This document shows positions 41,224 to 55,295 of a stretch of 64,000 nt of DNA, piece by piece. How positions within the stretch are numbered: position 1 is the stretch's first letter; every line of letters begins with the position of its first letter. Made by a program: the position numbers and the translations under genes. The DNA lies in the NCBI GenBank assembly GCA_025351345.1, contig JANXWB010000044.1, forward strand, positions 1 to 64,000. The letters are read 5' to 3'. This DNA is from Synechococcales cyanobacterium GL140_1_metabat_312. GTDB lineage: Bacteria > Cyanobacteriota > Cyanobacteriia > Leptolyngbyales > Leptolyngbyaceae. The notes under the pieces were generated by a model. That model made no database searches. It was not told where the DNA came from and worked only from the letters and a program-made list of their open reading frames with translations.

Positions 41224-41340
41224 AGAAATCAGTTGATTGATGAGGATGAATAGCGATCGCTCTTCTAGAATAAAAAATCTCTTCAGTATTCATAATACTC
41301 ATTCAATCATCGATTGCAGATCCAATGAGAAATATCATTA
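41224..41340. repeat. Imperfect duplicate of the NACHT gene 3' end (copy A)
   Basis: Matches copy B at 41910-42045 over about 115 bases with small indels. Shared blocks include GTTGATTGATGAGGA, CTTCTAGAATAAAAA, GTATTCATAAT and CTCATTCAATCATCGAT. It lies beyond the toxin end of the TA pair. The right part of copy B is coding (NACHT C-terminus); here the same sequence has no gene. Confidence 0.7.
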
Positions 41341-41365: not shown

Positions 41366-41623
41366 CTAATTAATCAATCTCTCGTACTCGTCGTGTGTGC
41401 CAATCCAAATCCAATAATAATTTTCTCCTTTTTTCAAAGCCAATGCTCGAAATCCACCACTAATTCGAGCAGACCAAAGCGTTTTTCCTACTTTTTTAAA
41501 ATGTAAGGATGGGTGAAATAAATTCTCTTGCCAAAGCTGATAAGCTTTTTGGGCTGGCTCTTTTACTTCTGGAGAGAGTTTTGCATAGGATTTCCAAAAG
41601 TCAGCCGTTGTTAAGGACTTCAT
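41366..41623 (-). CDS. RelE/ParE-type toxin
   Basis: An 85-residue small basic protein with the RelE/ParE pattern: FWKSYAKLSPEVKEPAQKAYQLWQENLFHPSLHFKKVG at the N-terminus, then WSARISGGFRALALKK and the final strand YYWIWIGTHDEYERLI. Toxins of this superfamily are mRNA interferases or gyrase poisons, and which applies here is unknown. The start overlaps the antitoxin stop by 23 bases, the typical TA coupling. The pair sits between two imperfect direct repeats (41224-41340 and 41910-42045). Confidence 0.8.
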   Translation of the reverse strand: MKSLTTADFWKSYAKLSPEVKEPAQKAYQLWQENLFHPSLHFKKVGKTLWSARISGGFRALALKKGENYYWIWIGTHDEYERLIN

Positions 41624-41822
41624 GGAGTTCTCTCACTTGGTTGATTTCAATAGCTGCTTCTGCCCTAGCAATCAAAGCATCTAGTTTTCCAGTTGCCAGA
41701 TCTGTTTCTAATTGGTTATCCCATCGCTGGTTCAAGTAGTCCTGAAGCCACTTTGCAAGATCACGAATTTCAGCTTCTGGCATTTTTTCGATCGCAGCTT
41801 CTACTTCAAATCGAGTTGTCAT
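41601..41822 (-). CDS. Antitoxin of the RelE/ParE-type pair
   Basis: A 73-residue acidic, helical protein (MTTRFEVEAAIEKMPEAEIRDLAKWLQDYLNQRWDNQLETDLATGKLDALIARAEAAIE...) placed upstream of and overlapping the toxin. The KMPEAEIRDLAKWLQDY segment is common in antitoxins paired with this toxin type. There is no obvious DNA-binding fold, so autoregulation is uncertain. Confidence 0.75.
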   Translation of the reverse strand: MTTRFEVEAAIEKMPEAEIRDLAKWLQDYLNQRWDNQLETDLATGKLDALIARAEAAIEINQVRELHEVLNNG

Positions 41823-41909: not shown

Positions 41910-42045
41910 AGAAATAGATCGGTTGATTGATGAGGACGAATAGAGATCGACTGCCCTTCTAGAATAAAAATCTTTTCGGTATTCATAATTCTCATTCAAT
42001 CATCGATCGCAGCCCATCGATCGCCGCTCCAATGGGAACATCATC
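41910..42045. repeat. Copy B of the duplicated segment, includes the NACHT stop codon
   Basis: Partner of copy A, about 690 bases apart. From 41992 rightwards it is the last codons of the NACHT gene (…DGLRSMIE). The TA pair lies exactly between the two copies, so the repeats look like the footprint of an insertion or a recombination at the gene end. Confidence 0.7.
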
Positions 42046-53770: not shown

Positions 53771-53908
53771 TCACCCAATAAAAGAGGAGATAAGACTGAT
53801 GCCTAGACCATCCGGTTGATGCTGATGGATGTACGATCGCTGCTGGTCGGTCAGTCGAGGACTATTATCAACCCACCAAATCCAAATGTGTGTATCCAAA
53901 ATGATCAT
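53771..53908 (-). pseudogene. Truncated VapC-type PIN-domain toxin
   Basis: 45 codons: MIILDTHIWIWWVDNSPRLTDQQRSYIHQHQPDGLGISLISSFIG then TGA. MIILDTHIWIWW is the conserved first strand of VapC with the catalytic Asp5. The family continues for about 80-90 more residues carrying the other acidic residues, all missing here, so the protein cannot be active. It ends in the cysS 3' spacer. Confidence 0.7.
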
Positions 53909-53970
53909 GACATCGCATCCCAATCATCAGGATTGACCTCTAGATCAGGATTGAGTAGGGTTTGACTCAT
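53905..53970 (-). pseudogene. Residual antitoxin tail fused to the VapC start
   Basis: 21 codons (MSQTLLNPDLEVNPDDWDAMS) whose stop overlaps the VapC start (ATGTCATGATC), the usual VapBC coupling. The DNA-binding N-terminal part of the antitoxin is absent. The break coincides with the RsmE remnant beginning 30 bases away. Confidence 0.5.
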
Positions 53971-53999: not shown

Positions 54000-54356
54000 T
54001 TTTATTCGGAACGATCGCAGACTCCGACGGTCGAGGAACCGATCGATTTTTCGCGGTATTTGAATGAATTAGAACCGCCCAAGTCTGATGATTTGCGATA
54101 TTTTTGTTGGGGGCGTGAGGATTCAGTGCATTTGTTATCACAACTTCAAACTGATTTGCTAGCGGGCGATCAGATTGATAGGAGTATTGGCATTACGATC
54201 GCCATTGGCCCTGAAGGTGGCTGGACCGATGAGGAAGTGACTCGATCGGTGAAGGCTGGATTTGTCTCGGTTTCTCTGGGGAAACGAATTTTGCGGGCAA
54301 TCATGGCTCCGGCTGCGGCGATGGCGATCGTCGGTGCGGTTGTAGAGGCGGATTGA
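54000..54356 (+). pseudogene. C-terminal half of RsmE (16S rRNA m3U1498 methyltransferase)
   Basis: The open frame starts right after a TAA (53997-53999). It reads RSQTPTVEEPIDFSRYL, then ITIAIGPEGGWTDEEVTRSVKAGFVSVSLGKRILRAIMAPAAAMAIV. This is the SAM-binding SPOUT knot of RsmE with its GPEGG and LGKRILR motifs. The N-terminal PUA-like half and start of the catalytic domain are missing, as is any good start (TTG 54060 is weak). Intact RsmE is about 240 residues. Unless a full copy exists elsewhere, this is a loss of the only gene. Confidence 0.75.
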
Positions 54357-54455
54357 ATTTAGAATTTTTAGATGTTTGATTTGGATTCGATCGCTACTTT
54401 CCCCTTCACCTGATCAAAAGCGATCGCTGTCATTTTGTTGATTCAAATTTAAAAA

Positions 54456-54500
54456 GCGATCGCCTAAAAATCATGACTCATAGTACTAGCGATCGCCTAC
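54456..54500. repeat. 45-bp direct repeat, left of the ParD/RelE pair
   Basis: Shares GCGATCG-CTAAAAAT-A-GACTCATAGT-GCGATCGC with the copy at 55251-55295 (about 82% identity by eye). Each copy carries HIP1-like octamers at both ends. Additional HIP1 sites lie just left (54420). Confidence 0.65.
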
Positions 54501-54587
54501 AGCAAACCCTTTAGCTACCAAGCGAAAGCCCTGTACTCTATCCGTTTACAAGGATGAGTGACGGGATTGAAGGTGCCTAGAGACTTG

Positions 54588-54632
54588 GTTGCAATATGCA
54601 ACAATTTGATATATATTGCAACAAGTTTGATT
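54588..54632. promoter_or_regulatory. Operator-like repeats upstream of the ParD/RelE pair
   Basis: A perfect inverted repeat GTTGCAATAT (54588-54597) / ATATTGCAAC (54613-54622) overlaps two direct repeats TGCAACAATTTGAT (54597) and TGCAACAAGTTTGATT (54617). This is the usual form of an autoregulatory antitoxin site, 12 bases before the antitoxin ATG. Confidence 0.65.
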
Positions 54633-54643
54633 GAGGTTTTACC

Positions 54644-54865
54644 ATGTCTATCGCAATCAGAATTTCCGATGATTTAGCCCAAAAAGCAAAAAGTCGATCT
54701 AAAGCGATGCATCGCTCAGTTGCGGGTCAAATTGAATATTGGGCGGCAATGGGCGAAATCCTTGAAGACAATCCAGAGCTTTCGTTTGGCTTTGTTCAAG
54801 CAATATTGATTAGTCGTGAGCAAGCTAAGAATTCAGAATTAACGCCCTATGAGTTTAGTGAATAA
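54644..54865 (+). CDS. ParD-like antitoxin
   Basis: A 73-residue protein. The N-terminal ribbon-helix-helix-like segment (SIAIRISDDLAQKAKSRSKAMHRSVAGQIEYWAAMGEI) is typical of the ParD-like antitoxin family. The acidic C-terminus would bind the toxin. A ribosome site GAGG precedes the ATG. It sits 5 bases upstream of the toxin, with palindromic and direct-repeat operator candidates immediately upstream. Confidence 0.8.
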   Translation: MSIAIRISDDLAQKAKSRSKAMHRSVAGQIEYWAAMGEILEDNPELSFGFVQAILISREQAKNSELTPYEFSE

Positions 54866-54870
54866 ATCCG

Positions 54871-55158
54871 ATGGGTGAGATTCAAGTTTTTCAAACGCCC
54901 TTATTTTCAAAAATTAAGAAAAAGTTAAAGAAAAATCAAGTTAAAGATCTTGATAATGCCGTAGGAGAAATTATCAAAAATCCCGAACTTGGGGAACAAA
55001 AAAAGGGTGATTTAGCCGATGTGTGGGTCTATAAATTCAGAATGGTTGATCGAGAAAATCTCCTTGCGTATCAATGGGATGAGAAAACGAGAACTTTAAT
55101 TGCCCTTGGAGTTCATGAAAACTTTTATCGTGACATCAAAAAATATAAAAAATTCTAA
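54871..55158 (+). CDS. RelE-type toxin
   Basis: A 95-residue basic protein: FSKIKKKLKKNQVKDLDNAVGEIIKNPELGEQKKGDLADVWVYKFRMVDRENLLAYQWDEKTRTLIALGVHENFYRDIKKYKKF. The LADVWVYKFRM and LLAYQWDE strands and the final basic helix fit the RelE/ParE superfamily (mRNA interferase type). It is the second gene of the pair at 54644-55158, which lies between two imperfect 45-bp direct repeats. The very Lys-rich N-terminus and AT-rich codons differ from flanking genes, suggesting transfer. Confidence 0.8.
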   Translation: MGEIQVFQTPLFSKIKKKLKKNQVKDLDNAVGEIIKNPELGEQKKGDLADVWVYKFRMVDRENLLAYQWDEKTRTLIALGVHENFYRDIKKYKKF

Positions 55159-55250
55159 ATTTATAAAAATTGCTGTGACATTTCTGCTGTCGCTTCAACT
55201 ATTTTTCTAACTGAATTCACCCGCACTAGCTAAGATTAAATATGAAGGTT

Positions 55251-55295
55251 GCGATCGTCTAAAAATAACGACTCATAGTGATGGCGATCGCACTA
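55251..55295. repeat. 45-bp direct repeat, right of the ParD/RelE pair
   Basis: Partner of 54456-54500. Blocks GCGATCGTCTAAAAATAA, GACTCATAGT and GGCGATCGCACTA are shared in order. Confidence 0.65.

Follow-up and report, generated by a model that had tools for sequence, protein, structure and literature searches.

Sequence comparison indicates that a ParD-like/ParE-like toxin-antitoxin (TA) pair is a horizontally mobile cassette, found in unrelated cyanobacteria at unrelated places. The pair lies in a 64,000-nt stretch of DNA (the window), which is part of contig C25 of genome G000 (3.85 Mb). It is probably kept as a mobile gene cassette between two directly repeated recombination substrates, each a 41-nt module (A) that is often chained with two other modules (B and C). 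Pointing to this mechanism are a dispersed repeat family, arrays that run one way, the same cassette in unrelated flanks, and a boundary repeat that holds another gene in a sister species.

The pair is embedded in a gene order that runs from cysS through a VapBC remnant, an rsmE 3' fragment and a chain of HIP1-separated spacers to the left 41-nt repeat, the ParD-like and ParE-like genes, the right 41-nt repeat and a photolyase-like gene (Table 1). The two genes are separated by 5 nt and both match curated type II TA families; they form a type II TA pair of the ParD_like/ParE-like kind, with toxin and antitoxin activities predicted. The sequence-only reading had labelled the pair ParD/RelE-type. 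RelE names the superfamily only, and ParE-like is the better name for the toxin. The antitoxin gene is intact and the toxin gene open in all five copies from Pseudanabaena described below, and the inverted repeat upstream of the antitoxin gene, also kept in those copies, is a probable autoregulatory operator. A sequence search of the toxin against the PDB gave nothing at E ≤ 0.1. An insertion sequence or transposon was ruled out, as the unit holds two TA genes only and ends in direct repeats, where a transposase and terminal inverted repeats would be expected.

Table 1. Features of the TA locus and of a further TA pair in the window.
Feature	Position	Strand	Basis
ParE_like TA pair	41366-41822		Between two ~90-nt direct repeats (41228-41319 and 41918-42012) of a dispersed family unrelated to A
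VapBC (PIN) TA pair remnant	53771-53938	-	Comparison with G001, whose version is intact
rsmE 3' fragment (16S rRNA m3U1498 methyltransferase)	54006-54356	+	97% to G001 rsmE, 83% to the full-length copy in G000
TTCGATCGC joint and HIP1-delimited spacer modules	54386-54455	+	With the A copy, 95% identical to the rsmE locus of the sister species (54386-54498 = G001:C360 7070-7182)
Left A repeat (HIP1, 25-nt core, HIP1)	54456-54496	+	Profile score 66; chance maximum ~2
Truncated module C (CTACAGCAAACCC...), frequent companion of A	54497-54519	+	Sequence comparison
58-nt dispersed element (ACCAAGCGAAAGCCCTGTACTC...), in place of the first ~77 nt/native left edge of the cassette	54510-54567	.	Matches in several Pseudanabaena genomes
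Mobile cassette core shared with Pseudanabaena	54575-55250	+	Sequence comparison, 94-96% DNA identity
Imperfect inverted repeat GTTGCAATATGCAAC..TATATTGCAAC, 5' of antitoxin gene	54588-54622	.	Arms 82% complementary; kept in Pseudanabaena copies
ParD-like antitoxin gene, 73 aa	54644-54865	+	PF11903 ParD_like, 6.1e-18, 65 bits (cut-off 23)
ParE-like (RelE/ParE superfamily) toxin gene, 95 aa	54871-55158	+	PF15781 ParE-like_toxin, 3.9e-34, 116.9 bits (cut-off 28)
Right A repeat; border with photolyase-side core genome	55251-55291	+	Profile score 55; chance maximum ~2; G000-G001 homology stops at 55250

The left and right A repeats are direct, identical at 35 of 41 positions (85%) and 795 nt apart. 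This agrees with the sequence-only reading, which had placed a TA pair between direct repeats at 54456 and 55251, except that the repeats measure 41 nt and not 45 bp. HIP1 octamers, said to mark each end, are exact at 54456, 54489 and 55284; the fourth repeat end reads GCGATCGT, and an extra HIP1 is present at 54420. HIP1 occurs 28 times in the window against 1.3 expected, a sequence habit of cyanobacteria. Pairs of 41-mers matching at 35 or more of 41 positions and spaced 400-1600 nt apart were found at two places only in the window, 41273/41966 and 54456/55251, each around a TA pair; five first-order Markov simulations of the window produced none. Equally similar repeat pairs at this spacing in random intergenic regions, which had been named as the outcome that would speak against the cassettes, were thus not seen in the 64 kb.

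Module A has the structure GCGATCGC-CTARAAATCACGACTCAYAGTAATA-GCGATCGC, in which a HIP1 octamer stands at both ends of an asymmetric 25-nt core. It is chained with modules B (CTTTAGGAGATAGATTGTTGAT) and C (CTTCAGCAAACCCACAGAAAATATATCGTTGAA) through HIP1 octamers in common, at chain spacings of 63 and 74 nt; B resembles C minus ~11 nt. The 54456/55251 pair belongs to this family, both copies being 41-nt modules recognised by the profile and sharing one orientation within the locus. A stable single-strand hairpin was rejected as the nature of A, which folds only into an 8-bp HIP1-HIP1 stem with a 25-nt loop and modest z-scores.

The ParDE cassette core is carried by five Pseudanabaena genomes, one copy lying on the P. 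galeata plasmid pPg_02, and was absent from three other genomes of the window's genus and from the other genomes of the family that were sampled. In all copies but one (L169), the right edge runs from GTT into GCGATCG and then A. The four Pseudanabaena copies with a full left edge start where GCGATCGC runs into CG, and the DNA upstream of them is unrelated (two have A there and two a different recurrent sequence). The left edges of the plasmid copy and of the window differ from these, that of the window having been altered by another repeat, the 54510-54567 element. The near-identity of the Pseudanabaena copies, the absence from the genus and family sample, and the stop of homology at HIP1/A together argue for a horizontally mobile cassette, so that the movement suggested by the sequence-only reading is largely borne out. 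The right-hand A copies at distinct sites are 78-93% identical, compared with ~95% for the cassette; being more diverged, A would appear to be part of the receiving site and not of the cassette. A second cassette, whose ORF weakly resembles HSDR_N, recurs at 87-99% identity in Nostoc, Desmonostoc, Anabaena, Spirulina and Pseudanabaena, and the DNA outside the repeat differs. HIP1 without A marks some cassette edges, namely those of the Spirulina copy and of two Pseudanabaena ParDE copies, so that A is not needed in every case.

Comparison with the sister species G001 revealed a slot with a different occupant. G001 has the photolyase-side repeat at the same position, and the 88% identity to the window stops there; on the other side of the repeat is a gene for an Mrr_cat (Mrr-type) endonuclease instead of ParDE. 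At the rsmE side, two TTCGATCGC 9-mers 3' of rsmE enclose a 609-bp segment of G001 that carries a ParE_like TA. A single such 9-mer, and no TA, is present at this slot of the window, and the flanks match G001 at 97% and 95%. The full rsmE of G000 itself (C73) shows a different sequence again at the same point, after CGATCG. Since the rsmE fragment is closer to the G001 gene than to the full-length gene of its own genome, it was probably imported, together with the adjoining array, from a G001-like donor.

The A family was detected in 38 of 390 genomes of the class and in 10 of 160 genera, often with 10-46 copies in a genome of Pseudanabaena. Among GTDB contigs, 58 stretches with A were found, every one cyanobacterial, with Pseudanabaena, Nostoc, Desmonostoc, Anabaena, Tychonema, Microcoleus, Planktothrix, Spirulina, Microcystis and Snowella among the taxa. 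Eight plasmids carry A; a search of IMG/VR contigs for a viral vehicle gave no exact match. A pattern search counted 14 copies in G001, a genome of the same genus, and 22 in G056, with no match to the reversed pattern in either. Neighbouring A copies with scores of at least 40 shared a strand in all 181 cases, a count to which some loci that overlap and some arrays that are related contribute. Two weak copies, scoring 33 and 38, are on the opposite strand. The copies are spaced 60-75 or 600-900 nt apart, and the units between chains are ~600-900 nt long (81 intervals of 250-2500 nt, median 779). ORFs in these intervals lie mostly on the strand of A (104, with 33, or 24%, facing the other way), and their Pfam matches include HigB, ParE, RelE, PIN, ParD_like, DUF433/DUF5615, Uma2, HNH and GNAT. 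None of the TA families was among the commonest ones in control ORFs, which were taken from the same loci at distances above 2 kb from any A; this comparison counts top families and is not a full enrichment test. Pfam was used for these counts, NCBIfam counts being uninformative because they were swamped by overlapping dehydrogenase models. A also occurs beside ordinary genes (AI-2E permease, PPK2-like). No Rfam match was found in the repeat array at L040 6300-13000. A further recurrent sequence, ending in ...AAAGACCAATAATTATTAA, stands just 5' of HIP1 at cassette left edges (L041 15182; L060, L062, L048) and sometimes replaces A.

Homology between genomes breaks off preferentially at A. At 49 loci, 127 of 301 distinct homology ends fell within 25 nt of A, eight times the chance level (random positions in the same loci gave a mean of 15.2 and a maximum of 26 in 500 trials), with positions resolved to the repeat and not to a single base. 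Where A was present in both genomes, its orientation agreed at 205 of 205 ends. The likeliest reading, and the most economical, is that asymmetric A repeats, with B and C, recombine or anneal with one another, in which case HIP1 would be a frequent joint. A circle or fragment may be released by, or carried with, direct A repeats and then join another A/HIP1 array through these repeats, either by homologous recombination or by annealing of strands; plasmids or natural transformation could deliver it, and no dedicated recombinase would be needed. Once in place, the TA pair would resist loss, because the toxin outlives the antitoxin. Counting against this mechanism, identity among A copies is often no higher than 78-90% over 41 nt, which is short for RecA-type recombination.

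The HIP1 palindrome alone might instead move the cassettes, for example by recombination of the type reported for Synechococcus PCC 7002, with A, B and C as HIP1-rich filler. The TTCGATCGC joint in the comparison of G001 with G000 and the HIP1-only edges fit this idea, as does the proximity to HIP1 of 32 of 174 breakpoints away from A (random mean 16), and HIP1-linked recombination appears in the literature, in the part of PMC4390886 that cites Akiyama 1998 and Robinson 1997. A palindrome should, however, give both orientations equally, and orientation is strictly kept (181:0 and 205:0), which makes this explanation quite improbable. The earlier suggestion of HIP1-assisted recombination is supported in part by the edges at HIP1/A and the pile-up of breakpoints on the repeats, but HIP1 is unlikely to act alone; the asymmetric 25-nt core that two HIP1s enclose seems to be important. 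That same directionality would also suit a dedicated site-specific directional recombinase acting at A, in an integron-like but unrelated system that captures cassettes with TA, nuclease and acetyltransferase genes and shuffles them between orders and plasmids. Conservation of the core across orders, exact edges at HIP1 and the mobility of single cassettes between genera are further points in its favour. A non-exhaustive search found no recombinase gene accompanying the A arrays, HIP1-only edges occur, and breakpoints are placed only to the repeat; we consider such an enzyme unlikely. Were it to exist, HIP1 would gain one concrete function.

The arrays resemble integron gene cassettes (attC/IntI) in their small accessory genes, including TA pairs and GNATs, in their unidirectional order and in single cassettes common to several genera. 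An IntI above the TIGR02249 cut-off was present in 12 of 23 tested genomes, including that of the window (C57:65599-66540, 459 bits), so that A could be a degenerate attC recombined by IntI. Yet A lacks the RYYYAAC/GTTRRRY boxes and is unlike the canonical attC (GCCTAAC...GTTAGGC) found in some IntI regions, six such regions (~95 kb) were without any A copy, and the array-rich genomes G073, G065, G069, G061 and G001 had no IntI above the cut-off. The A arrays also differ in having no adjacent integrase, several repeat copies per joint and reversed ORFs. An attC/integron identity of A was rejected on these grounds, and integron arrays are a disfavoured, very improbable explanation. Passive dispersed repeats of the MITE/SDR type, with the TA pair between them by coincidence, would agree with the occurrence of A beside ordinary genes and with the small dispersed repeats of many cyanobacteria (PMC4390886). 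Independent insertions should fall on both strands and leave homology edges off the repeats; the opposite was observed, and the cassette itself moved between genera, which contradicts this view and leaves it scarcely credible.

Other described systems share some features with the arrays. The pdif (dif) XerC/D modules of Acinetobacter are likewise discrete and in some cases TA-bearing; they have short repeated sites at their borders, and plasmids from different species have them in common (PMC6449649). Their 28-bp sites (11-6-11) are described as flanking modules in inverse orientation, whereas A is 41 nt long, direct and has HIP1 at both ends; this comparison is with the published description of the Acinetobacter sites. 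A type II ParE/ParD pair in the cyanobacterium Microcystis is fenced by two identical 152-bp direct repeats, which are longer than A, differ from it and contain a 16-bp inverted repeat; the available sections of that report (PMC7935541) describe no array or cross-genus cassette movement. The HIP1 octamer and cyanobacterial small dispersed repeats, such as SDR5 inside HIP1, are familiar (PMC4390886), and earlier work cited there (its references 5 and 6) connected HIP1 with recombination and excision. In the present arrays, HIP1 marks off the modules that lie at the borders of gene cassettes, and homology between genomes breaks at these modules. Searches of open-access text, which leaves out most subscription papers, turned up no description of these repeats or of their cassette arrays, nor any relevant paper by exact sequence words. 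The A family would be a boundary sequence that recurs at mobile TA and defence-type cassettes of cyanobacteria, could explain patchy genes of these kinds common to distant lineages, and connects HIP1, a palindrome that has long lacked an explanation, with recombination joints that can be measured.

The same genome has other TA pairs that lie between repeats. The pair at 41366-41822 is analogous in layout, and its repeat, which overlaps the 3' end of a NACHT-type gene, has similar copies in G001 (C97 twice, C212) and on C68 of its own genome. The sequence-only reading suggested that the two repeat-flanked cassettes share a mode of movement. The layouts are alike; the repeats are unrelated and the nearest relatives of the pair elsewhere are only ~67-76% identical, so shared machinery is unsupported. 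Elsewhere in G000, one further A copy and one degenerate copy lie on C53, again around a TA pair (HigB-like PF05015 and XRE). The HigA-like XRE antitoxin gene there (L003 1132-1446) has an in-frame TAA at about L003 1261 and the HigB-like toxin ORF is open; a relative of this cassette at ~90% is present in Pseudanabaena cinerea (L070).

The integron integrase of G000 is intact (L190 7555-8544, corresponding to G000:C57:65599-66540), and in the tested genomes IntI lies away from A arrays. An attC scan gave no site in L041 and two matches in L040, neither at an A copy. An attC-like 85-nt site (GCCTAAC...GTTAGAC) at L040 9775-9859, inside the A array of G056 and directly after an ORF, looks as though the array had taken up an integron cassette.
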